Assembly: GCA_034401795.1 (NCBI GenBank)
Contig: CM067370.1
Location: 62,288,369-62,352,368 of the forward strand
Length of the DNA stretch: 64,000 bases
DNA from: Chaetoderma sp. LZ-2023a
Taxonomy: Eukaryota; Mollusca; Caudofoveata; Chaetodermatida; Chaetodermatidae
Direction: 5' to 3'
Under the pieces are notes generated by a model. It was not told the DNA's origin and made no database searches. It saw only the letters and a program-made list of their open reading frames with translations. This document shows positions 3,858-56,625 of the stretch, piece by piece; the first letter of the stretch is position 1; each line of letters opens with the position of its first letter. Made by a program: the position numbers and the translations under genes.

Positions 3858-4905
3858 GTACGAGGGCTCCCTTCGTATCTGCCTGGACCGCACCTGTGCG
3901 ACAGGAACAGCGGTGCCAGTTAGACCGGTCAAGCCAGGACCAAAATGGTTCTCTCTCTCTCGTCAACAGTCTGTTTATTTAGGGATGCGATTCGATCTCG
4001 AGGAGGGCAGGGTTTACCCGTCAGACCCCAGAGTGGTGTCTCTGTTAGCCGTCGATTGGGAAACCACATTCAGGCGAGGCGGTTTCTTCAGATGCTGGGC
4101 ATGATGGTCTCCATGGAGCAGGTAATCCCGTACGCTGCTCTGATGCGAAGACATATCCAGTTGTATCTGATGTCTGTGGAAACAGAGAACAGAACCCCTG
4201 TCAAAGCTGGTGCCAGTTTTGGAGCGTCAGAATCTCCTAGTAGGGGTTTCCCTGCACCTACCCCACCCCCGGCTGTCCGTGTACACGGATGCATTGCTGG
4301 AGGGATGGGGGGGGGCCTGCCTGGGAGAACACCAGGTCTCGGCCACATGGACTCTCCAAGAGAGCCAGCTGCATATCAATCTGTTGGAAATGATGGCAGT
4401 GCAACTGGCGTTGGAAAAATTTCTTCCGAAAGTCAGGGGCAAGGCGATATTGATACGGTCGGACAACTCGACAGTAGTATCATACATAAATCTTCGAGCA
4501 TTGGGGGAAACCCAACGGGGACTTGTTCACCACAAAGGAAAATGCTCAAATCATGACTTATGTCTCGCCGATTCCAGATCCAAATGCCATCGATACAGAT
4601 GCTCTGGTGATAAGCTGGAGAGAGATGCATGCTTACGCGTACCCACCCACCATTCTTCTACCGAAGATTTTGGTGAAGATCAGGAAGGAACCGTGCCTGG
4701 TCCTGCTAATAGCGCCATTTTGGCCCAGCAGGGCATGGTTCAAGGATCTTCTAGATCTGCTGGTGGACAATCCAGTGCAGTTACCCGAGATTCCGAACAT
4801 AATCTCCCAGGCCAAGGGACGCTTCCTACACGAGCGTCCCGAAATGTTCAAATTGACTGCGTGGATGTTATCAAACAACGTTCCACGTCGGAAGGTTTTT
4901 CTCGA
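3858..4905 (+). pseudogene. DIRS RT remnant with RNase H domain
   Basis: The region opens with what aligns to the very end of a DIRS reverse transcriptase (QQSVYLGMRFDLEEGRVYPS at about 3964-4023) and the following conserved segment (VSMEQVIPYAALMRRHIQLY). The RT fingers and palm, including the YxDD box, are absent: only about 80 bp separate the gag tail from the thumb-like segment. RNase H is recognisable at about 4270-4510, with candidate catalytic residues in VYTDALLEGWGG, HINLLEMMAV and RSDNSTVVSYIN. The segment shared by DIRS pols between RNase H and recombinase follows in another frame (YAYPPTILLPKIL, LLIAPFWPSRAWF at about 4630-4745). It cannot make an active RT. Confidence 0.8.
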
Positions 4906-5948
4906 CAAGCTGCGAAATTCATCACAGCTGCGAGGAGGTCAACCTTCAAGTCATATAACAACAAGGTTAACAGATTTACAGACTGGTGCGAAGGAAAGGG
5001 TATTGATACCTTTCAATCCACTATTCAGCAAATAGCACACTCTGTGAGCTGTACTTTTCAGGACTAGCTCCTGTCACAATTGCTGGATGCAAGTCGGCTT
5101 TGGCATCAGTTATCCCTTGTCTAGCCAACATGGATAGTCCAAAGGTGGCCCAGTTAAATGTGATGGTGAAGGGAATGAGCAATCTCCGACCGAGACAACC
5201 GGTAGTCATTCCAGCCTGGAGTCTATCTTTAGTGCTTAATGTACTGGCCAAGCACCCTTTCCAACTGTTGCGTTCGGCTAGTCTAAAGCATTTGACTCTA
5301 AAGGCAGTCTTTCTATTGGCAGCTTCCTCAACTAGAAGGCGCAGTGAGATCCATGCACTTTCAGCAGAGAGGGACCGATTTATTGTCTCCGGAGAGGGTC
5401 TGTATCTACTGCCAAGAGCAGAGTTTATGTCAAAGAATGAATCTTTGAAATATCTCGGCAAACGGATCATTATACCGAAACTAACTAGGTTTGATCGTGA
5501 TGCCAGTGTCTCGTGCTCAGACCATGCTTTAACTAAGTACCAAAGAGGGACAGACTCGTTACGGTCGAATGATAGACATCTGTGGATCTGCCATAAGAAG
5601 CCATATTGTGCCGCATCCATGGATTCTTTCTCTCATTGGGTAGTCGAATGCATTCAGACTACCCATGAGATTGCGACTGGGTACCAGGTGCAATGCGCAA
5701 GGGCAGACGATGTTAGAGGAATAGCCGCCTCAACCGCCCTTTACAATGGTGTTCCGTTAGAGGACATCATGGCTGTTGCACAATGGCACTGTGAGTCCTC
5801 TTTCACGGATTACTATAGGAGGGATGTGTCAGACTCCGCCAATCCACCCGCTTTAGCTGTTTTGAAACGAGAGTTATACGACCACACTGCTCTTCTCCCT
5901 TTTTTGGCATTTGTAAGACTTGCCCCTTCCCACCAGGCTACTGTCTAA
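4906..5948 (+). pseudogene. DIRS tyrosine recombinase, frameshifted
   Basis: The N-terminal SAM-like DNA-binding half lies at about 4906-5040 (ARRSTFKSYNNKVNRFTDWC). A frameshift near 5040 moves the frame, which continues as LCELYFSGLAPVTIAGCKSA and stays open to 5948. The catalytic half shows the first Arg in SSTRRRSEIHAL, then RADDVRGIAAS where DIRS recombinases normally have a His two residues before Val-Arg (here Asp, codon GAC), and the Tyr box in SSFTDYYRRDV. The enzyme family integrates circular DIRS cDNA without duplicating the target. The His-to-Asp change plus the frameshift predict inactivity. Confidence 0.82.
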
Positions 5949-12563: not shown

Positions 12564-14777
12564 ATGGCGGATGATTCATTCATGTGCTTTGAATGTGGAG
12601 ATGACTACGGCAGTGAAGCTGAGCTGAACAAGCATTTGGAAACACACAATGTTGCCGCCAATCTTTACGGTGATGATAATGATGTGATAACTGCGGTGGA
12701 AGTTAATCAGTATGGCAGTGAGTCGAATGATGATGAGTGTAATGGTGAGAATATTGAAGCTAAAGATAAGTCTAATACAATGCCAGAGCTTTCTGAGACA
12801 CATGCATCTTTACATGGTAGTTCAGCAGATCATTCAGATGAAAATACATCAGAAAATTTAGTCAACCAGACAGAGGTATTTAGCTGTATTGTTTGTGGTG
12901 GTACCACAGACAGTTATGCTAGTTTTCAGAGACACATGTTGATTCATCTGGATGCATTCCTGGATAAATCAGCATCTAATAATGAAGACAGTGAGATGCA
13001 ACAGCCCAGTGTTGGCGTGAGGGAACAGTCTGTCCTGGCCGAGGATAAATCAGTACCAGGAATCAAAAGTGAGGATCTTGATAATGAACAAGTGACATCA
13101 AATACAATGCAGTGTATTGAATGTGGTGAGGTGTGCGGAACACAAAACTTGCTTGTAGCTCATATCATATCATGCCATGATACAGCTAACAAAACCATAG
13201 ACGAAATAGAAAATGATTCAGCTGAAGGTTCCCAGTTGGATGAAGATAGTGAAGTATCTGATAATGGCTCTGAATCAGGGGATTTTGATGACGTTTCAAC
13301 AGTCTTTACCAAAATAGCTGCAGTCAGTCAGGACAATGATGGATCCGATGAAAAACCTTATTCCTGCTGTGTATGTGGCTCAAGTTTTTCCTCGAATGAG
13401 GAGCTTGCAGAGCATATAGAGAATCATGTTGATGAGGGAGAGCAGGTGGATGGTGATGTTTGTGATCCTGATTATAAACCTCATTCGAAGGTTAATATTC
13501 AGAAAAGACCTGTTAATAAAGAAAAGACAACATATTCACGTAATGTCCATGTACGAATCGGTGCACATGACATTATTCCATTAGATGGACAATATACATG
13601 TCCAGAATGTTCAAAACAGTTTACAGAGCGAGCAGTGTTTAGGCGCCATCTTCGTGGACATTTTAGGAAGGTTCTGCCAGATGGAAACTACACATGCCCA
13701 GAATGTTCAAAAGAGTTTACAGTAGGTGCTGTATTTAGACGCCATCACCGTGGACATTTTAAGAAAATAATACCAGATGGAAATTACACTTGTCCAGAAT
13801 GTTCTAAAGAGTTTGTGACACGATCCGTTTTTACCCGGCACCTTCGTGGACATAAAGACAAGAAGGTATTGGTTGATGGAAGTTACACATGTTCACAATG
13901 TTCAAAGGAATTTACAAAACGGGCTGTTTTTAGACGGCACTGTCGTAGACATAATAAGAAAGTACTGCCAGATGGAAATTACACATGTCCAGAATGCTCT
14001 AAGCAGTTTGTAACGCGGGCTGTTTTTACCCGGCACCTTCGTGGGCATAACGAACTGCGATATAAGTGCCCGGAATGTGATAATAGTTTTACACAGCGCT
14101 ATCTTGTTATACATATGCGTACACACAGTGGAGATAAGCCATTCCCTTGCCTAGAATGTGGAGCACGTTTTGCACGTAATTGCTACCTAAATGAACATAT
14201 GCGTGTGCACACTGGTGAACGTCCATACGCGTGTACAATCTGTTACAAACGTTTTACCCACAAGTGTCATTTAAACTCTCATATTCGTACACATACTGGT
14301 GAACGGCCTTACCAGTGTGATTTTTGTAGTAAGGCATTCACAGAAAGTGGTCGTTTGAAAAAACATCGACGCATCCACACAGGTGAGCGACCATGCTTGT
14401 GTTCTTTTTGTGGTAAAACTTTCACTGAGAACAGCAGTCTTCGGAAGCACATCGCTACACATACAGGTATTAAACCGTTTCCATGTATATTGTGTAAGAA
14501 ATCATTTATGCAGTCGGATGCGCTGACTGGTCATATGAGAACCCATTTGAAAGATAATAATTTATACACTAATCTCATGAAAATGTCAAACTCAAAAACC
14601 AATTCTGATTCTGAAGACTCTATATTAAATGACTATTCTGCTTTCGAGTTGACTCATGGTCCAGTAGAATGTGAGCAAGCAGATGATGCATCTAGTGACT
14701 GTGACAGTCCAGAATACATCCCACATGTAGATGCAATAGAATGTGAAACTGCAGATCATGCAATCATGCCCTCATGA
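12564..14777 (+). CDS. C2H2 zinc-finger protein, 15 fingers, 737 aa
   Basis: An intact single-exon ORF starting ACCATGG, a good Kozak context. Fifteen C2H2 fingers can be counted. Four are dispersed and separated by acidic Ser/Asp/Glu-rich spacers (residues ~8-28, 108-128, 184-205, 268-288). Five near-identical fingers of the form YTCPECSK(Q/E)F(T/V)..(A/S)VF.RH.RGH follow (~344-495), joined by unusually long linkers such as KKVLPDGN. Finger 10 (502-521) has one residue fewer than usual between its second Cys and first His. Five classical fingers (529-661) have TGERP-type linkers. The C-terminal tail is acidic. Likely a nuclear DNA-binding regulator; target unknown. No KRAB, SCAN, BTB or ZAD domain is visible. 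No orthologue can be named, as expected for lineage-expanded C2H2 families. Confidence 0.93.
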   Translation: MADDSFMCFECGDDYGSEAELNKHLETHNVAANLYGDDNDVITAVEVNQYGSESNDDECNGENIEAKDKSNTMPELSETHASLHGSSADHSDENTSENLVNQTEVFSCIVCGGTTDSYASFQRHMLIHLDAFLDKSASNNEDSEMQQPSVGVREQSVLAEDKSVPGIKSEDLDNEQVTSNTMQCIECGEVCGTQNLLVAHIISCHDTANKTIDEIENDSAEGSQLDEDSEVSDNGSESGDFDDVSTVFTKIAAVSQDNDGSDEKPYSCCVCGSSFSSNEELAEHIENHVDEGEQVDGDVCDPDYKPHSKVNIQKRPVNKEKTTYSRNVHVRIGAHDIIPLDGQYTCPECSKQFTERAVFRRHLRGHFRKVLPDGNYTCPECSKEFTVGAVFRRHHRGHFKKIIPDGNYTCPECSKEFVTRSVFTRHLRGHKDKKVLVDGSYTCSQCSKEFTKRAVFRRHCRRHNKKVLPDGNYTCPECSKQFVTRAVFTRHLRGHNELRYKCPECDNSFTQRYLVIHMRTHSGDKPFPCLECGARFARNCYLNEHMRVHTGERPYACTICYKRFTHKCHLNSHIRTHTGERPYQCDFCSKAFTESGRLKKHRRIHTGERPCLCSFCGKTFTENSSLRKHIATHTGIKPFPCILCKKSFMQSDALTGHMRTHLKDNNLYTNLMKMSNSKTNSDSEDSILNDYSAFELTHGPVECEQADDASSDCDSPEYIPHVDAIECETADHAIMPS

Positions 14778-28172: not shown

Positions 28173-31045
28173 ATCATTAGCTCACCTGGCCAGAATGGTA
28201 AGGTAGCTTATGCTGTGGCGATCATCTGTTGTCTGTCAGTCTGTCCATCTCTCTGTCAACTTTTTCTTTGAACAACTTCTCAAGAATCACTGTGCTGATT
28301 TCAATTATATGTGGCAGGAAGCATCCTTAGCACATAGAGAACCAAGTCTGTTCAAACAAACCCAATTGACCAATTTGTCCCATTGCCATCTTGGATTTTG
28401 GCCGATTTTTAGAAATTTCTTTAAAAACTTCCGAAGCCGCTTGGGGGATTGATTCAAAACTCATGAAATATCATCTATGGCAAGAGCGGAACCAATTTTG
28501 TTCTAGAGAACTTGATTGGTCAAATGATTCAGTGGCCATCCTGTACCTAGCTTTCATGAAAATGACTTCTGCAGAACCGTTGAATGGATCGGGCCGAAAT
28601 TTGGGAGCTATGATTAGGGACTAATGGCCATTAAAGTTTGTTCAAGGTTAGTTGATGGGTAAAAATAAAGCCGCCGTGGACCAATCGAAATATAGCCTGT
28701 TTGACAGCCATATTGGATGTTTTGATTTGATGGATTTTGAAGCCAAAATTGTTTTATATAGGTTTTTGGGCATGGCGATTTCAAATTTCCACTTTCGAAT
28801 CAGTGATAAATGGTTGGGCTGCCATCTTGGATATTTTCCCGTCCAAAATTCTCATACTAAAGCAATGCAAAACTTTAAATGTCTTCTCGAGCACCACGGG
28901 TCCGATTTGAAATTATGTTGGGCAGTAAACAGAGATCCAAGTTTTTTCAAATGAAGCCGATCTGCCAGTTTGTCCATGCAGTGACCATATTGGATTTTGG
29001 CTGATTTTTAGGATCAATTGAAAACTCATAAAATATAATTTAGGCCAATGTATGATTACTGTATTCTGCGGCTGTAATCGTAGAAACATCCTAAAGTTGC
29101 AATCATTCCTTCTTCGTGTACCAAGTCCTGCTTTCTAGAGGTCACCTCGTACCACGCTTAGCAGATTTATGCAATGACATCCTCTCCGGGCTTTGTATTT
29201 GCTGCCTCAGAGTAGGGTGAATTCCAAGGCTCTCTGTGCTGGTGTCTCGTCTGGCATCCTTAGCACATGGGCAAACATGAACCATCTTTGCTGGGCGACT
29301 TTTACCGACAGCGGCGACGTATTACACATCTTGTATAGTGCATCTTTGGAAATTGTGCTGTCTGGCCATCGGTGTCCAGTGATGGTGCGTAGGTGTTTGC
29401 GGTGGCAGGCATCGAGTTTGTCTAGAGCTGCCTTAGGAGCTGCTCAGCTGTTACAGTTATACAGCATCAAGGATACGCAGGTTGCATTGTATAAACGTAG
29501 CCTTTTTATCAAGGGCATCTTTGATCTACGAATCTATAGAAGGACTGGAAAGCTATGTTCCCCATGATGCAGCGTGCAGCAATGTCAGCAGTACTACAAA
29601 GCAGTGATCCCAGGATTTTAATTAACCTCCATGGTTCGCAGCCACAAAGTGGATCATCATTTTCTTTAGTTCCATGCTTTGTAGATAGGTATATGTGGGT
29701 GAACTCTGTTTTGGTTTCATTCATAAATAGATTCTCAATTTTGAGTTTGCTTGCAGCTATTGGGAGAGGTTCGTCAAGGGGTTTCTTTTCCTCGTCTATG
29801 AAGTCCATATCTTCGGCATATTCCATCTCTAGCAGCATGTCAAATATTGACACTCTGGGGTTTGGTCTTGTGGAATTTTCCCGCACCGATTTCAATGCGG
29901 CAGCAAGGTAGCAGGTGAAAAGCACTGGAGATAGACCATCTCCCTGTGGGGAGCTGATTGATGTCTCAAATTCTACAGACTTCACTGACTTGACTCGTAC
30001 TCTCAGCTTGGTGCCTGCAAGCAGTAGTCTCACTAGTCATACCGGTAGCTCATCTTCATTGGAACTGGCCTGGCATAGTACATCTAGGATCTTTGAGCAT
30101 TTAATTGTGTCGAAGGCTCGTGACATATCAATGCCCATTTTGTGGAGATCCCAGTGTTTGGACATGACTACCGACACAAGCATGCATTGAGCCCATACAA
30201 TGTCTGATAGGATTTTCCGTATGCTGTTGAGGAAGACAATGGGTCACAAATTGGCTGGTGGGCCAGGGCAAAATCGATCCCCGATATCGATAGGGGAATT
30301 TGAGACAGATGGTTAGGGACTAAGATCCATTAAAGTTTGTTCAAGGGACGTTGATACATAAAAAAACATGGCCGCCATGGACCAATCAAAATGTTTTGTG
30401 TTTGGTGGCTATATTGGATTTTTTATTCAATGGATTTTGAAGCAGAAATTTGTTTTATGTAGTTTTTTTAGGTATGTTGGTTTCAAATTTCCACTTTTGA
30501 AGCTGTCGGATAAATGGTTTGGTGGATATCTTGGATCTTTTTCCTAGCCAATAACTCCAATACTAAAGCAATGGGAAATGTAAAATGTCTGCTCGAGTTA
30601 ACTTCTTGACCGATCTCAGTTATATTTGGCAGGCAACATTCTTAGGCTATAGAGATCCAAGTTTGTTCAAATGAAGCTGATCAGCCAATTTGGCTAGTGG
30701 CCATCTTAGATTTTCGCCGATTTTTAGATATGTATTTAAAAATCTTTTGGGGATCCATGCAAACCTCATGAAATATGATTTAAGGCAAAAGGTGAACCAA
30801 GTTTGTTCGAGGGAACTTGATTTACGAAATGGTTTGGTGGCCAGCTTAGATGACCTCGTTTTTGTGAAAATAACTTCTCCAGAACTGCGGAACGGATCGC
30901 ACCAAAATTTGAGTATGGCCGAAGCGCCGTTAAAATTTGTCCATTGAAAGTTTTTTCTCTAAAATATTTGTGGGGATCAATTCAAACCCCATAGAGCATC
31001 ATTTAGACCAACAGCTGAACCAAGTTTGTTCAAGAGAAGTTAAAG
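28173..31045 (+). repeat. Pearl/Helitron-like repeat interrupted by LINE copy B
   Basis: Head ATTAGCTCACCTGGCCAGAA at 28174, units of the GGCCATCTTGGATTTTGGC type to about 29049, then the LINE (29050-30268). The same repeat resumes at about 30290 (GGGACTAAGATCCATTAAAG). The LINE therefore inserted into an existing copy. Confidence 0.78.
29050..30268 (-). mobile_element. LINE copy B, 5'-truncated
   Basis: The minus strand from 30268 encodes the RT from just upstream of its PIVLLNSI-like segment. It then gives the fingers/palm (NEDEL-type helix), SPQGDGLSPVLFTCYLAAAL, the catalytic box as EYAEDMDFI (the third residue of the YADD box is Glu here), KLKIENLFMNETKTEFTH, and the C-terminal LDACHRKHLR.I.GHRW region. 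The 3' end near 29050-29075 ends GCAGAATACAGTAATCATAC, matching 41338-41358 in copy C. Several frame changes; dead copy. Confidence 0.85.
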
Positions 31046-42602: not shown

Positions 42603-43124
42603 TTAAAAAACGCCAAATCTCGAGGAAAGAATATCAAACGCATTTTCTACAACTCTGAGTGCACCGCTCAAACGATAATTGAAAATACGCTTCTCAACAT
42701 TGAGTTGCCCACTCAATTCACCACTAAATGGCTTCAATAGGTTTTCGGTCATTGCAAAGGTGTCATCTCCAACAAATACATATGGCACACTTATTAAATC
42801 ATTTTCATGTAGTTTCTCTGGCTCAGGTAGCGCAAGTTTGTTTTCTTCTACCATCTTGCCGAACACGGTATGGCTAATGACTCCTCCATCAGAAACTCGT
42901 CCATTAACACCAACATCGACCATCAAAAATTCATATCTAGCATTCACCACTGTCATCAGGACTACATCGAAAAACATTTTGTTGTTGTAATAAAATGATC
43001 CAGATCCAGGTGGCTTTTTTATTGCAACATGTTTACCATCCATCGCGCCAAGACAGTGTGGGAAGTTCCACTGTGCTTCGAAGTCTTGGCTCACAAGGGT
43101 CCATTCTTCCTGTGTTCTTGGTAG
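42603..43124 (-). CDS. Harbinger transposase, catalytic exon (DDE_Tnp_4 type)
   Basis: Opens after a TTTCATTTCCAG acceptor (43125-43126 on this strand) with LPRTQEEWTLVSQDF. The catalytic triad is visible: Asp in CLGAMDGKHVAIKKP, Asp in VDVGVNGRVSDGGV, and Glu in RLSGALRVVENAFDIL. This exon alone is an intact frame of ~174 residues. It nevertheless belongs to a gene whose upstream exon is broken, so a functional product is unlikely. Confidence 0.85.
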   Translation of the reverse strand, partial: LPRTQEEWTLVSQDFEAQWNFPHCLGAMDGKHVAIKKPPGSGSFYYNNKMFFDVVLMTVVNARYEFLMVDVGVNGRVSDGGVISHTVFGKMVEENKLALPEPEKLHENDLISVPYVFVGDDTFAMTENLLKPFSGELSGQLNVEKRIFNYRLSGALRVVENAFDILSSRFGVF

Positions 43125-43167
43125 CTGGAAATGAAAATACATGTATCATAATTTATATTTTTACAGG

Positions 43168-44947: not shown

Positions 44948-44980
44948 TGCAGGCGCGTTCTCAGATTATAGGCGCCAATG
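44948..44980 (+). repeat. Terminal inverted repeat, left
   Basis: Reads TGCAGGCGCGTTCTCAGATT followed by ATAGGCGCCAATG. Pairs with 50883-50915. Preceded by TCCT. Confidence 0.87.
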
Positions 44981-45141
44981 GGGTTTAGTAAAGATGAAAA
45001 ATAAACAAACGATTTTTGCTAATGTGGTTTAATAGTCCTTGTCGGTAACATCTCCCCCTTAAAATTCTAGAAGGGGACAAACATCTGTCAATTGGACAAT
45101 GAGTTATGGACACCTAATGTAACCTACTGCATTTCCAGTTT

Positions 45142-45701
45142 GAAATCTACGTTACCATTTTTGAAAAGGATAAATTGACATCCACACATAGTGGCAATGG
45201 CAGAATTAATGAATTGGTGACGAGAAAAAAGACAAGACTGGTTTTCACCTTCATGAAAAAGCTTACTGACAGGGTACAGTGGTTATTTTGATTGAAGTAT
45301 CAATTTGGATATATTGCATAAGTGTAATTTCTAGTCATCAACACATTCAAAATGTAATTTATTAAATTAAATGGTATACACAATTTGATTCTCTGACCTT
45401 TTGTGCTGAATTGTGTTGTAAGTATAATGATATTTGAACTGGGTGACCATCCTCGGCTAATACATCTTCATTTCCATCTGACAGACAAATACAAATGGTA
45501 ACGTAGATTTCAGAAGAACTGCTCTGCTCCGTAACGTAGATTACTATAGCATAATTTCCTTATAATGGTAAGATGAACGCCAATTAGAACTAGTCTAGAA
45601 CCAGAAAATAATATAGCAGTAACATCCAGCCATATTATTAACAATTCCAACGTGTTGCATGGGACGTTTATGGTGGCAACTAAACTGGTAACGTAGATTT
45701 C
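45142..45701. repeat. Left cluster of subterminal 15-bp motif
   Basis: Copies of GGTAACGTAGATTTC at 45142-45156 (minus), 45497-45511 (plus), 45530-45544 (plus, two mismatches) and 45687-45701 (plus). Presumed transposase-binding sites by analogy with subterminal repeats of other DNA transposons. Confidence 0.8.
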
Positions 45702-45835
45702 ACAAGGCAAGGTATATGTGGCTGCTTCATTAAAAAACTTAATATTAACTGCTAAACGTGGCGAGGGAGGATATTCCAAAACTCCAAATGTGGTACTATT
45801 CTCATCTTGATTAAGAGCATATATACTGAGCTTTA

Positions 45836-47893
45836 CTATTCACATTCGTCGCAAAGAAACCTAGGGTCAATGCCCCCTGCACATTCAACATGTACCCACC
45901 GTGCACAACGGATGCACCGTACCATATCTTCAATTGTGTTGTCGTCGCATATGGGGCAGTACCAAGCATCATCTTTGTTTTTCATTTTTCGTTTCTTTGG
46001 TCCTGTCTTGGTACCGCTCTGTCCTTTCTTCGCCTTTGCTTTCCCTTTATTAGTTGTCGTTTTCTTAGGTCTACCTGCTGGTACTATTACTTCTTCATCA
46101 GGTAGGTCAGGTAACGTGGGGGGTGGGGTTGAGGCTACTGTATGCTCCTCCCACGTGCAACTGCTACTTGCAATATCAATGATGCAGTTTCCACAATAAC
46201 AAGAAGTGTCTCGTGTTTTTACCTTCCCTGGTTCGATACCATGAACGGCATGGACTTTCATGGTACCCTTAACAGCCCTTAAAATTGCATTACTAGAAAC
46301 TGTCTTGATATACTGGCTGCACTCTTCCCTTGAGACGAAAGGAAATTCCATCGCCATTCCTGAAGTAACAGCCCACGCATGAAAATCAAATGCATCCTGG
46401 ATTGCTAAATCTGGATTCGATTTGATGGCCTCATCAGCCATTCTTTTTAGCGTCCCTCCCAGTCCATCACACGGCCCTTTGCCATGACCCGCCTCCCAGT
46501 AGTTCCATGTTGCCGCTATGAGATAGCGCGTTTGGTGCAAGCTAATCCAGTTGAAGATTGCCTTGTTGCGATACTGGGATGTTGGACTATCAGTCCAATA
46601 GTGGATCTTTGTTAGATTCGGCTGTGTAGTTTTCATCAGCGGAATAATTTTATCCATGAAACACATTACCGTATTGGCGTTGTGATCCATCTCATTTGAG
46701 ATGATCACGTAACTCTTGTGACACAATTGACCATCTGCATCTTGGTAATAGTGAACAATGGGATGAAGTGTGACCCCTGTCTGGTTCCAGTATGCCGACT
46801 GTACCTCGTTGAGTGGTTTGCAGACGTAATTTTCTGCAAAGTCCATCTGAAGGATCCCTTCATTGGGAGGAAGGTTGTTCTTCAGGCTCTTCATTGCTTT
46901 GAACTGTGTATGTATCCGACAGACATGTTGCCGAAATGCTACATTTTCTCTCATAACATGGTCTATAAAATCCCGACGGCTAAGCCGGACATCTGCAACT
47001 TTCAACTTCTTGCCAGCACCATCTACTTGTTCACTCTTCCACTGTTTGAAAGCGATTTCCTCTGGCTTCTCTGGCAATCCGTTGAGTGTAGCAGCAAGTT
47101 CTGTGTCCGTCAAAGCCTGCAAAGTCTTTTCTGGGTTCGTGTGTACAGGTAGACCTTGGGCTCTCATGGACGACATCAGCATGGCCATGTTCTGATGCTT
47201 GATACAAAGGCAGATATTGCGACTTGCGAAGTTGACAGTGCGAATGTTCGGAGGGCGAATTCTACAGAATGATGACAAGGAGATCTTAAGTCCTATATTT
47301 TCCGAAGTGAACTTCGAATGCAGGTTCCCTAAGTAGTCATTCAACACAAAACGTTGCTCCATTTTTCCTGTCTCGTCTTTGTCGGCATCCCTCTTCCCCG
47401 GCATAGTTCTCGAGTTGTCCTCGCGCTGTAGGAACTTGATTACTACAGAACTCTCCCGAGCAATAAGAGAACAGTACCTCGCCTGGAGTTTTGGAAGACC
47501 CTTTCCCGTCACGTTTCCTAGTGCCCTGCGGCACAGACCAGTTTCCTTGTGGAGTGTCCTTAACAATCTATATTTCTTTGAAACCTTGCCACTGACTATT
47601 TTGTGCAACAGTTTGATAGTTCCCCTAGAGTTGCCATCCTTTGAATCTTTAATTTCCTGACAAATTACATTTGCTAAGAGGAGTTTGCGCGACACCAACT
47701 TTCTTCCACGTTTCCGGGTAGACTGGAGCACACTTATGTCTGCCCGTGTCTTGCTTTTAGGCGTCAATTCGGTCATCTCAATACCACTTTTGGGTGACGA
47801 TTTGCGCCTCTCCCTTTCAAGTCGTTTTTCAGTACGTCTACATCGTTTTTTCAATTTCTCAATGGTTTTGTATGCCCTTCCGAGTGATCTTGG
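45836..47893 (-). CDS. Candidate DDE transposase with AT-hook-like segment and C-terminal PHD finger
   Basis: An open frame of ~685 codons on the minus strand; numbering here starts at the TTG codon at 47854. There is a basic N-terminal region, then a core with candidate acidic triad Asp338 (ILQMDFAENYVC), Asp422 (IHYWTDSPTSQYRNK) and Glu454 (WEAGHGKGPCDGLGGTLKR). A CYCGNC knuckle follows (552-557), a PAGRPKKTTT AT-hook-like segment (~592-601) in a Lys-rich linker, and a C4HC3 PHD finger (Cys633, 636, 647, 650, His655, Cys658, 668, 671) at the very C-terminus. It should cut and rejoin the element's ends; the PHD finger may read histone tails. The triad assignment and superfamily are inference. 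The frame continues upstream past a TGA at 47894-47896. Confidence 0.8.
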   Translation of the reverse strand, partial: PRSLGRAYKTIEKLKKRCRRTEKRLERERRKSSPKSGIEMTELTPKSKTRADISVLQSTRKRGRKLVSRKLLLANVICQEIKDSKDGNSRGTIKLLHKIVSGKVSKKYRLLRTLHKETGLCRRALGNVTGKGLPKLQARYCSLIARESSVVIKFLQREDNSRTMPGKRDADKDETGKMEQRFVLNDYLGNLHSKFTSENIGLKISLSSFCRIRPPNIRTVNFASRNICLCIKHQNMAMLMSSMRAQGLPVHTNPEKTLQALTDTELAATLNGLPEKPEEIAFKQWKSEQVDGAGKKLKVADVRLSRRDFIDHVMRENVAFRQHVCRIHTQFKAMKSLKNNLPPNEGILQMDFAENYVCKPLNEVQSAYWNQTGVTLHPIVHYYQDADGQLCHKSYVIISNEMDHNANTVMCFMDKIIPLMKTTQPNLTKIHYWTDSPTSQYRNKAIFNWISLHQTRYLIAATWNYWEAGHGKGPCDGLGGTLKRMADEAIKSNPDLAIQDAFDFHAWAVTSGMAMEFPFVSREECSQYIKTVSSNAILRAVKGTMKVHAVHGIEPGKVKTRDTSCYCGNCIIDIASSSCTWEEHTVASTPPPTLPDLPDEEVIVPAGRPKKTTTNKGKAKAKKGQSGTKTGPKKRKMKNKDDAWYCPICDDNTIEDMVRCIRCARWVHVECAGGIDPRFLCDECE

Positions 47894-48110
47894 TCACTTG
47901 GTTTGTATATCTCTTTGAAATGGCAGACGCACTACCATTGGTTGCTCTATGTGTCCCAGTGGTGTTGAACAATTGGACTCCACTGAATTATCGCCAATAT
48001 CGCTGGCAATTGTCGTATCTAGGTCGTCTTGTATCCCAGCACGGTGATCCTGAAATACACAAGAGCAATCGGAGATTGCAAATGCTCTCCCCTTCCATTT
48101 TGCCATTTTT
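47894..48110 (-). pseudogene. Upstream part of the transposase frame, cut by an in-frame TGA
   Basis: The frame MAKWKGRAFAISDCSCVFQD ... RDIQTK ends at TGA 47894-47896 and is exactly in phase with the large ORF that follows (PRSLGRAYKTIEKLKKRCRR). It is best read as one exon broken by a single nonsense change, possibly CGA to TGA. It could instead be a 5' leader if translation begins downstream, but no good ATG is present there. Confidence 0.6.
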
Positions 48111-48576
48111 TTAAATCTAGATATTTAGAAAAATTTCTGTTTCCTTTTTACATTGGCGTGGGTTTGTATGATTTCTAAGCTTCGACCTATACTTCTCGTA
48201 GTTCCACATTTTTGTTTTAAATTTGGAGAGGGACATACATCCAGGCAGTCAGACAGGCATGCAGACAAACAGGCAGGCAGACAGGAGGATGGTCGGGTGG
48301 TTGTTTGGCAGGCAGGCAGGCATGTAGGCAGACAGCACTCCGCATATTTACTTATACAATGACTGGAGCTATTGTGCTCTGAAATTGGTGGTTCAGCTCT
48401 TTTGTTTTCTTCATTACTCTCAGGCCATCGCTGTGACAGAATATGCGGACAATTTTGTATTGACAAGATATGGCGACAGTTACAAGAATATACGATTTTC
48501 ATAATATACAATGTACAGCATTAAAATTGTCAGATGTCTTATTAATATCAGGCTTCACTTTGTTAGCGCCCCGGAC

Positions 48577-48808
48577 CCCTTTAATCAAATATAACAGTCA
48601 TCTCCGGCCTCTGCATTGACCTTAATAAATGCCTATTTGCAAACCATGCGAGGACAACCGCCGAAAACATGCCACTGAAATGACCGACTCGGTGACCGAG
48701 CCAGACATCCCAATGATACATTTCCATAAATAGTCCTCTCCTTGCCCACAAACTACAATTTTTTCTGACAAAATGAAGATTTCCAAATTAAATGTAATCC
48801 TTAAAGGG
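48577..48808. mobile_element. MITE family A inside the transposon's intron
   Basis: ACCCCTTTAATCAAATATAA start and CCTTAAAGGG then TTAC at the right. Diverged arms around GACTCGGTGACCGAGCC. Nested insertion, younger than the host transposon copy. Confidence 0.65.
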
Positions 48809-48854
48809 TTACATACCGAGACAATATCATTCCACTTAGTTCATAACATGGCAC

Positions 48855-49070
48855 ATTCATTGCCATGGCATTGATAACTGTCCATTTGCGGACTATGCCT
48901 ATTTGCGGACTAATGGAAGAGTACTCCTGAAAATATATCACTGGAAACTCTGGCTCGATGAAAGAGACAGTGATTCCAGTGATAAATGTCCAAAAACAGC
49001 CCTCTCCATGTGGTATGTGCTAGTGGACCCCAACCCTCCCCACCCACATTTACGGGGGAAAACATTTTCT
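48855..49070. repeat. MITE A-related hairpin sequence
   Basis: CTGTCCATTTGCGGACTATG, arms around TATCACTGGAAACTCTGGCT/AGTGATTCCAGTGATAAATG, and a CTCGATGAAAGAGAC core. A second, more decayed relative of family A; ends not clear. Confidence 0.5.
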
Positions 49071-49084
49071 CTGTATAGGCCCAC

Positions 49085-49282
49085 CTTGACACGTTCACGG
49101 TGACGTCTAAGATTGATGTTGTTCTTCTCTCTCCGCTTTCGTAACTCCCTCCTGGACAGGTCTTGGCTTGGCGTGTAGTACCTTTTCACCCGTGCTCTTT
49201 CTTTCTCAGCCCATGCGATTTCATCTTGAGCTTTCTTCCTTTCCCTATACGCCCTCTGTATCTCAGCTCGTGTTTTCCCCAT
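49085..49282 (-). CDS. Putative first coding exon of the PHD transposase gene
   Basis: ATG at 49282 (an alternative in-frame ATG at 49300) opens MGKTRAEIQRAYRERKKAQD and continues with EKERARVKRYYTP, LSRRELRKRREKNNINLRRH: highly charged, predicted helical, plausible as a nuclear-localisation and DNA-contact region. It ends RHRERVK at an AAG/GTGGGC donor (49085/49084). Joining to the exon at 48110 is inferred from order, strand and charge; the phase was not confirmed. Confidence 0.5.
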
Positions 49283-49409
49283 AGTGGCTGAAATGGACAT
49301 ATTCCCAGTGTGACTCTATTTATATTGCAATTTACGTGCTGCTAGACACGGCTAAAATGTTCCTTACCAAAGGGAAAGCGGACAAGTCTATGTCGTGTAT
49401 TATATGCAT

Positions 49410-50521
49410 GAAATCTACGTTACCGATGGTAACGTAAATTTCATAAACGATGGTAGGTCCATATTAATAAATGAATACACAAACTACAATAAAATATGGG
49501 ACTAGGCCTTACATCAGACTCAATATTTATGCGTAATATTGATTAGATTGTTTCAAGCTTGAAAGGTATCAGTTTGGGAAAGTCAATTGATAGAGTAGTG
49601 GAATTCATACCAAATGTATGAGATCTAAATTTATTTGAGCCATTTGTATTAATAACAAGAAAAACATAATTATCCAATTCGAGTTCTAATTAATGGCACT
49701 TCCTATTCTTGTTCTTGTTAAGTTGATTAGAAGCACTTATAGAAATGGATCTTAAAACAAACAAATGTTTACCAGGTATTAAATGAATGAAATCTACGTT
49801 ACCAACGGTAACGTAGATTTCCTAGAGATAAACAAACTATATTTAAACATATCTAAATCAAGGGACAATAATCTCGGTAACCATTCGATATATTGGAATC
49901 TAAATGTATTCATAAACTACACCCATGCGCTATGTATATGTAAGGTACCAGAGAGTAACAAATTACCGTTAACACTATCTCTACTAACCTGAATGTACGG
50001 ATTTATGCAAGTAAACGATGGTCGTCTGTTGAAAAACACCATTGCAATGACGCACAGTCACACGATCACGATGCTGGAGGTCAAACGTCAAAATAATATA
50101 TAGCGCAGCAGCTGTAAAATTAACATCCGGTACTTGCAACCGTGTTCGGTAACGTAGATTGCGGTAACGTATATTTCATCCATGCATAAAATCAACCATA
50201 GTAAATCATAGACAAGAGTATTTCATGGAGCAAACATATATTTTGAAAGTTGAACACAGTCACTATATTACACCTTATAAAGCTCAATGGGCCCGACTCT
50301 CTCTGTGTGAAAAACGATAGTAACGTAGATTTCATTCCCATTTGTCCCCTTTCGATTTGTGCAGTCTTAGACTGTCCCTCAAATTTCGCGAAGGATTTGG
50401 AGTCATAGACCATACTTTATTTTAAACTATATGAATTCACGATCTAAAACAGATAATAATATTGAAAATTCCCTCACTACCCTAACCAGGCCATCCAGTT
50501 TAGCTTGGTAACGTAGATTTC
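49410..50521. repeat. Right cluster of subterminal 15-bp motif
   Basis: Seven copies: inverted pair 49410-49424 (minus)/49428-49442 (plus, one mismatch), inverted pair 49789-49803 (minus)/49807-49821 (plus), 50163-50177 (one mismatch), 50320-50333 (one base shorter) and 50507-50521. A further partial copy is at 50148-50160. The two inverted pairs form palindromes with 3-bp spacers. Confidence 0.8.
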
Positions 50522-50882
50522 AGAAAAAATTTGCGACACGGGTTCAGCATGTAATATCTTTTGAACAAAGTGGTGGAAATGCACCCAGTATAAAGCGTAT
50601 TGAAAATGAGGCATACTTGTCTTTAATGGAGCGGGGCGTCATGGGAATTTCTCAATAGATTTAGATGAAAATGGCACCAATTAAAGGCAGTGGGCATTTG
50701 CGACATGCATAATTTAACACTATTTAGTATAATCTGACCTCTTTCGAGGGCATCTAGTCTAAATGTGCATTATTAAGGACCAAATTTGAAGTTGACACAT
50801 ATCAAACGATTGTCCCCGGTAAATTAATGGTAAAAATGAATAGCAATAACAGCTTTTTCATATAAATAATAATGATAGACAG

Positions 50883-50915
50883 CATTGGCGCCTATAATTG
50901 GAGAAAGCGCCTGCA
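50883..50915 (-). repeat. Terminal inverted repeat, right
   Basis: CATTGGCGCCTATAATTGGA then GAAAGCGCCTGCA, the inverted partner of 44948-44980. Followed by TCCT. Confidence 0.87.
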
Positions 50916-51240
50916 TCCTGGCACATAATTTAAGCCTCCAAAAGTAAATAATTTTAACCGTTTAATTTTGAAGCAATATTTTTGTGAATATGCACCTTTA
51001 AGGCGAAGAAGACAAACGAAGACGCATGTTCCCCTCTGAATAATGCTGGTCGACAATCTGGCTATTAATGTTGAAGAAACATACATTGTAACAACTAAAC
51101 ACAAAATTTGGCATGGCTCAAGATTTTAAAACTCTCCAAGTTAAAAAACAAAATGATTCTGTTGCTGTACCTTTTTCCATTAATGTTTCCAAAATGCCAG
51201 TGTGCTGCCCCTCCGAATGCTGTTTTCCCCCCCACATATC

Positions 51241-51366
51241 AAGGCTATACATGTATCTTTACACAAATCAAGGCTATACATGTATCTTTACACAAATCAA
51301 GGCTATACATGTATCTTTACACAAATCATGGCTATACATGTATCTTTACACAAATCAAGGCTATAC
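51241..51366 (+). repeat. 29-bp minisatellite truncated by assembly gap
   Basis: About 4.3 copies of AAGGCTATACATGTATCTTT-ACACAAATC, starting at 51241, 51270, 51299, 51328 and 51357. The array ends 20 bp before the N run. Confidence 0.88.
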
Positions 51367-51385
51367 ATAACACACGTGTCATGCG

Positions 51386-51885
51386 NNNNNNNNNNNNNNN
51401 NNNNNNNNNNNNNNNNNNNNNNNNNNNNNNNNNNNNNNNNNNNNNNNNNNNNNNNNNNNNNNNNNNNNNNNNNNNNNNNNNNNNNNNNNNNNNNNNNNNN
51501 NNNNNNNNNNNNNNNNNNNNNNNNNNNNNNNNNNNNNNNNNNNNNNNNNNNNNNNNNNNNNNNNNNNNNNNNNNNNNNNNNNNNNNNNNNNNNNNNNNNN
51601 NNNNNNNNNNNNNNNNNNNNNNNNNNNNNNNNNNNNNNNNNNNNNNNNNNNNNNNNNNNNNNNNNNNNNNNNNNNNNNNNNNNNNNNNNNNNNNNNNNNN
51701 NNNNNNNNNNNNNNNNNNNNNNNNNNNNNNNNNNNNNNNNNNNNNNNNNNNNNNNNNNNNNNNNNNNNNNNNNNNNNNNNNNNNNNNNNNNNNNNNNNNN
51801 NNNNNNNNNNNNNNNNNNNNNNNNNNNNNNNNNNNNNNNNNNNNNNNNNNNNNNNNNNNNNNNNNNNNNNNNNNNNNNNNNNNNN
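51386..51885. other. Assembly gap (500 N)
   Basis: Exactly 500 undetermined bases, so probably a placeholder of unknown true length. Confidence 0.99.
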
Positions 51886-55323: not shown

Positions 55324-56625
55324 ACCCAGCCAATCTGCGGCCCATTATGCTCCTCAACAGCATACGGAAAATCCTATCCAATGTTACTCTATGCCGCATC
55401 CGAGACAAGATCGATGACTTCACCGGATCATGTCAAAGTGGCTTCAAACGTGGACGCAGCTGCGCAGACATTGTATGGGCTCACCGCATGCTTGTGTCGG
55501 TAGTCATGTTCAAACACTGGGATCCCCACAAAATGGTCATTGACATGTCACGAGCCTTCGACACAATTAAACGCTCACATATCCTAGATGTACTACACCA
55601 GACCAGTTGCAATGAAGATGAGCTACGACTAGTGAGACTACTGCTTGCAGACACCAAGCTGAGAGTACGAGTCAAGTCAGTGAAGTCTGTAGAGTTTGAA
55701 ACATCAATCGGCTCCCCACAGGGAGATGGTCTATCCCCTATGCTCTTCACCTTCTACCTGGCTGCTGCATTGAAATCCGTGTAGGAAAGTTCCACAAGAC
55801 CAAACCCCCGAGGGTCAATACTGGGTATGCCGATGGAGATGGAATATGCCGACGATGTGGACTTCATAGACGGGAAAATAAATCCCTTGACGAACTTCTC
55901 CCAATAGCTGCAAACAAACTAAAAATTGAGAATCTCTTTATGAATGAACCCAAAACAGAGTTCACACACATACACCTATCTACAAAGCATGAAACTAAAG
56001 AAAATGACGATCCACTTCGTGGCGGCGAACCATGGAGGAAAAGTAAAATCCTGGACTCACCGCTTTGCAGTACTGCTGACATTGATGCACGCTGCGTCAT
56101 GGGGAACAAAGCCTTCCAGTCCTTCTGTAAGCTATGGATTCGTAGATAAAAAATGCCCTTGATAAAAATACTACGTTTATACAATGCAACCTGCTGATCC
56201 TTGATGCTGTATAACTGTAACAGCTGGGCAGCTCCAAAGGCAGCTCTAGGCAAACTCGATGCCTGCCACCGCAAACACCTACGCACCATCAATGGACACC
56301 GATGGCAAGATAGCATGATTTCCAATAATGTACTATACAAGATGTGTAATATGTCGCCGCTGTCTGTGAAAGTCACCCAGCAAAGATGGTCCATGGTTGG
56401 CCATGTGCTTAGGGCGCCAGAAAACACACCAGCACAGAGAGCCTTGGAATTCGCCCTACTCGGAGCCAGCAAATACAAAGCCAGGAGAGGACGTCATTGC
56501 ATAAATCTGCTAAGCGTGCTACGAGGTGACCTCAGGAAAGCAGGGCTCGGTACATTCAAGTCAAGAATGCACGTAAGAAAACTAAGGATTTCGGTTGAGG
56601 ACAAGACACAGTGAGCAAAAGCGAA
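55324..56625 (+). mobile_element. LINE copy D, RT region
   Basis: The best-preserved RT of this family in the window. An open frame 55347-55784 gives MLLNSIRKILSNVTLCRIRD, DDFTGSCQSGFKRGRSCADI, IDMSRAFDTIKRSHILDVL, NEDELRLVRLLLADTKLRVR and IGSPQGDGLSPMLFTFYLA, ending at a TAG. The catalytic box follows in another frame as MEYADDVDFID (about 55839-55872, YADD intact). The C-terminal segment (NSWAAPKAALGKLDACHRKH; QQRWSMVGHVLRAPENTPAQ) runs to about 56613. 5'-truncated, with no endonuclease. Confidence 0.9.

Follow-up and report, generated by a model that had tools for sequence, protein, structure and literature searches.

Which part does a PHD finger, a domain of chromatin-reading proteins, play at the end of a transposase? 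The question is raised by an element at positions 44,948 to 50,915 of a 64,000-nucleotide stretch of the genome of the mollusc Chaetoderma sp. LZ-2023a (assembly GCA_034401795.1, contig CM067370.1, positions 62,288,369 to 62,352,368 of the forward strand; hereafter the window). A first-pass annotation of these letters alone had described a complete, apparently undescribed DNA transposon, and had suggested that its finger would direct the choice of target sites through histones. The analysis presented here indicates that the element is a cut-and-paste transposon that has moved recently. Its lineage appears to have exchanged a Tudor-like C-terminal module for a PHD finger that was then kept by selection, and the finger would tether the transposase complex to chromatin. 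Taken as a whole, we consider this reading rather probable.

The genome (2.44 Gb) was searched with 653 bases of the left end as a probe, which matched 17 near-identical places and two divergent ones, and all 18 places other than the window were compared together with their flanks. One copy (L016) was left out because it is identical to L015 including the flanks, giving 16 distinct young copies with the window counted; the identity of these two, on contigs C2408 and C1210, over the element and both flanks indicates that the assembly holds duplicated pieces. Both ends were present in 14 copies, and two (L009 and L020) were cut off, with one end each. The comparison gave GGCGC as the left terminus and GCGCC as the right one (GCACC in L010). 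When a 32-base pattern made from both ends, ambiguous at the differing bases, was run over the window with up to three mismatches, it matched the two ends only, and none was expected by chance. The inverted ends of about 32 bp with three mismatches noted in the first-pass annotation were thus found, but the four outermost bases on each side (TGCA) vary among copies because they are flanking DNA, and the repeat itself is 29 bp. Once these bases are trimmed, the homologous copies in the same genome have the same ends.

The TCCT read earlier on both sides of the element was rejected as the target duplication after the copies were aligned: it is a coincidence just outside the true duplication, which here is TGCA. 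The expected length of 4 bp held. Perfect duplications were found in 9 of the 14 two-ended copies (TGCA in the window; GTGC, TGCC, GCTA, TATA, AACA, GCTA, GAAG and TATA in eight others), with one mismatch in four copies and two mismatches in one. In addition, a repeat copy adjoining the L021 insertion has kept an empty site like the insertion site of L022, in which ATAA stands only once, just as duplication of 4 bp on insertion would predict; in this comparison the left copy of the duplication was the one that differed. The imperfect duplications (L015, L018, L019, L021 and L022) have a mismatch rate far above the divergence of the elements and greater than expected from mutation after insertion. 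Between the left and right flanks of L018 there are several overlapping matches, each about 150 bp long, which indicates that this insertion sits in repeated, perhaps tandem, DNA.

The 16 distinct copies differed from their consensus by 0.24% on average, and a minor base occurred in two or more copies at 3 sites only. This near-absence of common derived bases is the pattern of one recent burst, and the element is a real, recently mobile DNA transposon. A protein search of the same genome added a young fragment on contig C5 and the older relatives L062 (contig C16, 68% identical) and L069 (contig C862); because the best 66 of 2,796 candidates were scored, copy numbers are lower bounds. L025 and L026 are further older relatives. 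Both L062 and L025 are dead copies with many stops, 11 of them in L062.

The large transposase gene seen earlier was present, but homologs and splice signals predict that it is divided into two exons rather than being a single open reading frame, for a protein of 803 residues. Many of the 120 homologs listed begin like MGKTRAEIQRAYRERKKA, and those are 800-900 residues long. Under this model the frame was open throughout in 5 of the 14 copies, with L021, whose landmarks were not found, counted as not open. The window copy carries a premature in-frame stop (Table 1; L017 and L021 could not be read there) and probably makes no full-length protein any longer.

A search with the window protein found 547 homologs, the best 120 of which were read; the named relatives were mostly from molluscs, lancelets and sea urchins. 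The core was compared in an alignment of 60 proteins, consisting of the window protein and 59 of these 120. The acidic motifs of the first-pass annotation were confirmed; Asp422 and Glu454 were invariant and Asp338 nearly so, and Asp463, equally invariant, had been missed. A CLCxxHQN segment and a CxCxxC...C.W cluster were also conserved. In integrases a helix with KELK-like residues begins with the third acidic residue, and by this analogy D463, in GPCDGLGGTLKR, would be a better third catalytic residue than E454. A Pfam scan of the window protein (expectation value, E, up to 10) returned no transposase family, and none was among the 25 listed of 113 families matched by the 60 aligned members (E up to 1). 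As a kind, however, the element cannot be called undescribed: to judge from its homologs, the transposase family is widespread among animals and not new, and it is the PHD finger that is unusual. No prokaryotic or viral relative was confirmed: of the 9 and 55 stretches that matched two short patterns each, none encodes a relative. Two homologs (P0098 and P0109) carry names that assign them to a bacterial metagenome assembly (Sedimenticola sp.); they are probably animal DNA in that assembly, since no relative in a prokaryotic genome was confirmed. A tree of 60 core rows, made by a quick method, put the window protein on a long branch (1.18), with Tudor-type members to both sides of the midpoint root.

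The C-terminus is where the window protein departs from its family. A Tudor-like profile built from 56 homolog C-termini, themselves among the 120 counted, matched 104 of the 120 (E below 0.001), and the remaining 16 mostly end early. The same profile matched 6 of 6 sampled relatives of other families in the same genome (E from 1e-13 to 1e-31). It left no trace in the six frames of the window element (best E 1.6). The C4HC3 PHD pattern was distributed in the opposite way: it matches the window protein, and was found in none of the best 120 of 547 homologs and in none of the 6 sampled relatives. A search for PHD-bearing homologs elsewhere with residues 546-672 gave 66 candidates, none significant. 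The spacing pattern agrees at residues 633-671 with the C-terminal PHD finger of the first-pass annotation, with a Pfam score below the cut-off (PF00628: 16.6 bits against a curated cut-off of 24, E 0.008, full model length matched). The best matches of the finger among solved structures, all weak (E 0.037 and up), were PHD fingers of the MLL family. For the Tudor-like profile 16 structure matches were listed, each weak (best E 0.026), of which we take 13 to be Tudor or Agenet domains (PHF19, PHF20, PHF20L1, DUF724 and SPF30, with one entry named Agenet). Pfam scans of 12 Tudor-type members were likewise weak, with a chromo-like family of MORC2 in 5 of 12 and several Tudor and Agenet families in one each. 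A basic linker and a PHD finger thus stand in the place of the Tudor-like domain in the window lineage, and replacement of one by the other is the simplest reading of the sequences.

If the finger had come from the chance capture of a host exon, it could be a passenger with no role, and its presence in only one of the lineages examined would suit such an origin. The substitution pattern and the older relatives speak otherwise. The ratio of nonsynonymous to synonymous divergence (dN/dS) of the finger was 0.13 against L062 and 0.10 against L025, from only 44 codons and with dead copies as the relatives. It lay below that of the core (0.23 and 0.38), and the linker reached 0.71 against L062. Synonymous divergence (dS) between the young family and these two relatives was about 0.9, so the low ratios indicate that the finger was kept by selection over a long period. 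Because L062 and L025 are dead, part of this history was neutral, and constraint while the elements were active was probably stronger. L026 also keeps remains of the PHD finger. The comparison points to purifying selection on the finger, and we give a passenger very little credence.

Another role that selection could maintain is recognition of the transposon's own ends or internal repeats, with no part in chromatin. The C-terminal domain of piggyBac is a PHD-like cross-brace finger, rich in cysteine, whose target is a motif repeated at the ends of the transposon, according to the available excerpts of PMC8086355, and the window element has subterminal repeats as well. The subterminal motif GGTAACGTAGATTTC, missed in the first-pass annotation, occurs in 12 copies in the noncoding ends (up to two mismatches) and in none in the coding exons; with three mismatches allowed, the whole window holds 14 matches where 1.35 would be expected, and 12 of the 14 lie in the element. 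In L025, 113 of 120 motif bases were conserved (94%, 8 sites) compared with 871 of 1,212 other noncoding positions (72%), although in its right half some sites are covered by short alignments only, in which repeats that do not correspond may have been paired.

These features are, however, common to a Tudor-type family in the same genome that has no PHD finger. Its copies L070-L072 are about 98% alike, end in GGTACATTCTCAGAT (L072 deviates in the final three bases on the right), have 4-bp duplications in 3 of 3 cases (CTTT, ATGT and TGAT), and hold eight sites like GGTARCGTATCTGA each; a long array of CTA/CAG-type repeats lies upstream of the transposase frame. The left end GG..C.TTCTCAGAT is the same in this family and in the window element. 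Copies of the repeat core GGTARCGTA number 10 in the window element and 8 in each of L070-L072, and the core was absent from the remaining 58,040 bp of the window, from the flanks of L070-L072 and from 50,035 letters of sampled background. Because the core and the left end are found in the Tudor-type relative too, end recognition probably resides in the part of the transposase that both have and seems not to need the PHD finger; it looks as if it was conserved while the C-terminal module was exchanged. The core of the finger is also strongly acidic (isoelectric point, pI, 4.46), which would ill suit the binding of its own DNA, with charge an imperfect guide. Own-end binding by the finger is, in our estimate, improbable.

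The finger might instead be a structural or protein-protein module, for dimerisation or contact with a host factor, that does not bind histones. Purifying selection shows that a function exists and not which one, and RING, FYVE and PHD fingers have a common fold with widely different targets, as stated in the excerpts seen of PMC8086355. Two observations point the other way. The nearest solved matches of the domain in whose place the finger stands, although weak, appear to be of Tudor or Agenet type, and those of the finger itself, also weak, are MLL-family PHD fingers. The aromatic cage bears on both possibilities. In PHD fingers that bind histone H3 trimethylated at lysine 4, the cage consists of Tyr, Met and Trp, as in ING2, and the corresponding positions of the young family are Y632, M644 and W653. 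Positions 632 and 644 were unchanged in L062 and L025, and codon 653 was CGG (Arg) in both, so the tryptophan is not common to the older relatives, as a structural module would allow. A purely structural role nevertheless seems unlikely to us. Because of the Arg codon in both relatives, the complete cage may be recent. An extension of this idea, that reader exchange retargeted the element naturally under unchanged end recognition, and that the burst followed a change at residue 653 which made the finger a reader of methylated H3, strikes us as quite unlikely.

The reading that we prefer, with the finger as a chromatin tether, can be put as a sequence of steps. The conserved part of the transposase would bind the ends and the GGTARCGTA repeats, and would cut and insert with a 4-bp stagger. 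The acidic finger would bind the tail of histone H3 and the basic linker DNA, so that the complex would be held at one class of chromatin; the Tudor-like domain may tether the relatives likewise. The zinc finger of PiggyMac, also acidic, binds H3 but does not bind DNA, according to the same excerpts (PMC8086355). The PHD finger may change where in chromatin the element inserts, and histone-directed choice of targets, as first suggested, would be the outcome. At the insertion sites, mean CpG observed/expected in the 1-kb flanks was 0.90 (16 insertions) compared with 0.70 in 34 background stretches (p 0.0085), the latter being one small set with coordinates hand-picked on 11 large contigs, from which L051 was left out because of N; another control set, 30 one-kb windows from 15 regions, gave p 0.0059. 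CpG-richer flanks fit insertion into DNA that is unmethylated or promoter-like. Next to the duplication, CGC was favoured to its left and GCG to its right (45 of 84 compared with 16.8 expected), a post hoc preference, since the 14 sites that suggested CGC-NNNN-GCG were also those used to score it. The left duplication copy ended in A in 11 of 14, which was seen after the fact. A test for a palindromic target was not significant (25 of 98 pairs, null 25.8).

Several points weigh against this reading. The background for the CpG comparison is small and hand-picked, and GC content did not differ between flanks and background. Charge is a poor guide to binding: PgmL fingers with very different isoelectric points gave similar H3 signals, and the H3 binding of PiggyMac was weak, not specific for methylation and not by a canonical PHD fold, in the excerpts available (PMC8086355). 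The Arg codon at 653, present in both older relatives that could be read at this position, speaks against an ancient reader of methyl-lysine. The Pfam score of the finger is below its cut-off, and L062, a dead copy, has lost one zinc-ligand cysteine. The Tudor-like assignment of the relatives' C-terminus is itself weak, and the Pfam family matched most often by Tudor-type members was the unrelated GH97_C (6 of 12). Motif conservation in L026 (37 of 45 bases, three sites) was not significant (p 0.28). The gene model is a prediction from homologs and splice signals, and the acidic motifs resemble those of an RNase H-like (DDD/E) catalytic core, a fold that is likewise putative here. No set with support of at least 95 in the core tree includes the window protein, and its exact placement is not well supported. 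Finally, 5 of the 14 duplications carry one or two mismatches.

Whether chromatin readers guide the targeting of eukaryotic DNA transposons is difficult to test, since elements with different readers mostly have different ends as well. The genome examined here contains two families that are alike in terminal sequence, duplication length and repeat core and different in the C-terminal module, which makes them a ready-made comparison. The PHD family is so young that its insertion sites should lie close to the unselected pattern. The data also suggest that many invertebrate "uncharacterized proteins" are transposases with a Tudor-like, chromatin-type domain.

Table 1. Coordinates in the window of the transposon and of its observed and predicted parts
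Feature	Position	Strand	Remarks
Whole transposon	44952..50911	.	5,960 bp; boundaries from comparison of 16 distinct copies
Left target-site duplication TGCA	44948..44951	+	equals right copy
Right target-site duplication TGCA	50912..50915	+	equals left copy
Left terminal inverted repeat	44952..44980	+	29 bp, 3 mismatches to right repeat; length read from sequence
Right terminal inverted repeat	50883..50911	-	29 bp
Subterminal repeat GGTAACGTAGATTTC	45142..45156	-	
Subterminal repeat	45497..45511	+	
Subterminal repeat	45530..45544	+	2 mismatches
Subterminal repeat	45687..45701	+	
Inverted pair of subterminal repeats	49410..49442	.	49410-49424 minus, 49428-49442 plus
Inverted pair of subterminal repeats	49789..49821	.	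49789-49803 minus, 49807-49821 plus
Two adjacent subterminal repeats	50148..50177	+	50148-50162, 50163-50177
Subterminal repeat	50319..50333	+	
Subterminal repeat	50507..50521	+	
Predicted transposase exon 1	49085..49282	-	66 codons, starts MGKTRAEIQRAYRERKKA; tblastn of 3 homologs; donor AAG/GTGGGC
Predicted intron	48050..49084	-	1,035 nucleotides
Predicted transposase exon 2	45836..48049	-	acceptor TTTCAG/GATCAC to stop; includes 672-residue open reading frame 45836-47854
Premature in-frame TGA of window copy, codon 118	47894..47896	-	absent from 11 other copies read
Candidate catalytic Asp338	46841..46843	-	nearly invariant, at least 90% of 60 aligned proteins
Candidate catalytic Asp422	46589..46591	-	invariant in 60 aligned proteins
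Glu454, one of two candidates for third catalytic residue	46493..46495	-	invariant in 60 aligned proteins
Asp463, other candidate for third catalytic residue	46466..46468	-	invariant in 60 aligned proteins; preferred by analogy
Cysteine cluster CxCxxC...C	46157..46201	-	C552, C554, C557, C566 invariant in 60 aligned proteins
Basic linker with AT-hook-like GRP	45971..46081	-	computed charge about +14
PHD finger, C4HC3	45842..45958	-	stands where the family has its Tudor-like domain; pattern at residues 633-671

Elsewhere in the window there was a fragment of another transposase at 42603-43142 (DDE_Tnp_4, E 4.7e-18), a 737-residue open frame at 12564-14777 that encodes about ten C2H2 zinc fingers, and fragments of retroelement reverse transcriptases at 29509-30033 and 55347-55784 (RVT_1, E 4.5e-5 and 1.4e-12). 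Positions 4210-5067 gave a weak match to a retroelement RNase H (E 4e-4). A tandem repeat with a unit of about 29 bp, identified by eye, lies at 51230-51370, and a stretch of N begins shortly after it, at 51386.

Among known systems, several are set apart by their ends, duplications or domains. Chapaev and Transib elements have CAC ends, and the ends of the window element begin GGCGC. The duplication of piggyBac is TTAA, which was found in none of the 14 duplications of the window family, and no piggyBac family appeared in the Pfam scan of the window protein. The retroviral-type integrase domain of Ginger was not seen in that scan either, as no integrase family was matched with E up to 10. The RAG1-RAG2/Transib system has ends and a core that differ from those of the window element. 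A PHD finger is associated with the transposase there as well, but a separate protein, RAG2, carries it along with a six-bladed propeller (PMC4411706, in excerpt). piggyBac and PiggyMac likewise carry a C-terminal cross-brace zinc finger on the transposase itself, that of PiggyMac being acidic and binding histone H3 weakly (excerpts of PMC8086355), whereas the C4HC3 PHD pattern is that of the window element.

The element fits the printed description of Sola, with which it was compared by description and not by sequence. In the excerpt available, Sola elements have a DDD transposase, a 4-bp duplication, a length of mostly 2-9 kb, inverted repeats of 11-1124 bp and variable ends (PMC10741241). 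Sola1, Sola2 and Sola3 are among the elements of a bivalve survey (PMC10294476, also in excerpt). The window family has the same duplication length (9 of 14 perfect, and 3 of 3 in the Tudor-type relative), its 5,960 bp and its 29-bp repeats are within the Sola ranges, and the variable ends are also alike. A DDD triad would be compatible with D338, nearly invariant, and the invariant D422 and D463, but E454 is invariant too. The term "PHD" does not occur in the two searched papers that include passages on Sola. In open-licence literature no paper was found that describes this transposase family with a PHD or Tudor domain, nor any match to the motif strings of the element.

The closest relatives are the Tudor-type members, both in this genome (C1:35805714, C14:117938026 and C12:27479929) and among "uncharacterized proteins" of Ruditapes, Haliotis, Branchiostoma and others, which have the same N-terminus MGKTRAEI..., the acidic motifs and the cysteine cluster. 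The family in the same genome differs in having a single-exon frame, with 859 residues in L070 and either 859 or 839 across five copies, and in its Tudor-like C-terminus without a PHD finger (read in the C1 copy, L067), and it has the same left end, the 4-bp duplication and the subterminal GGTARCGTA core.

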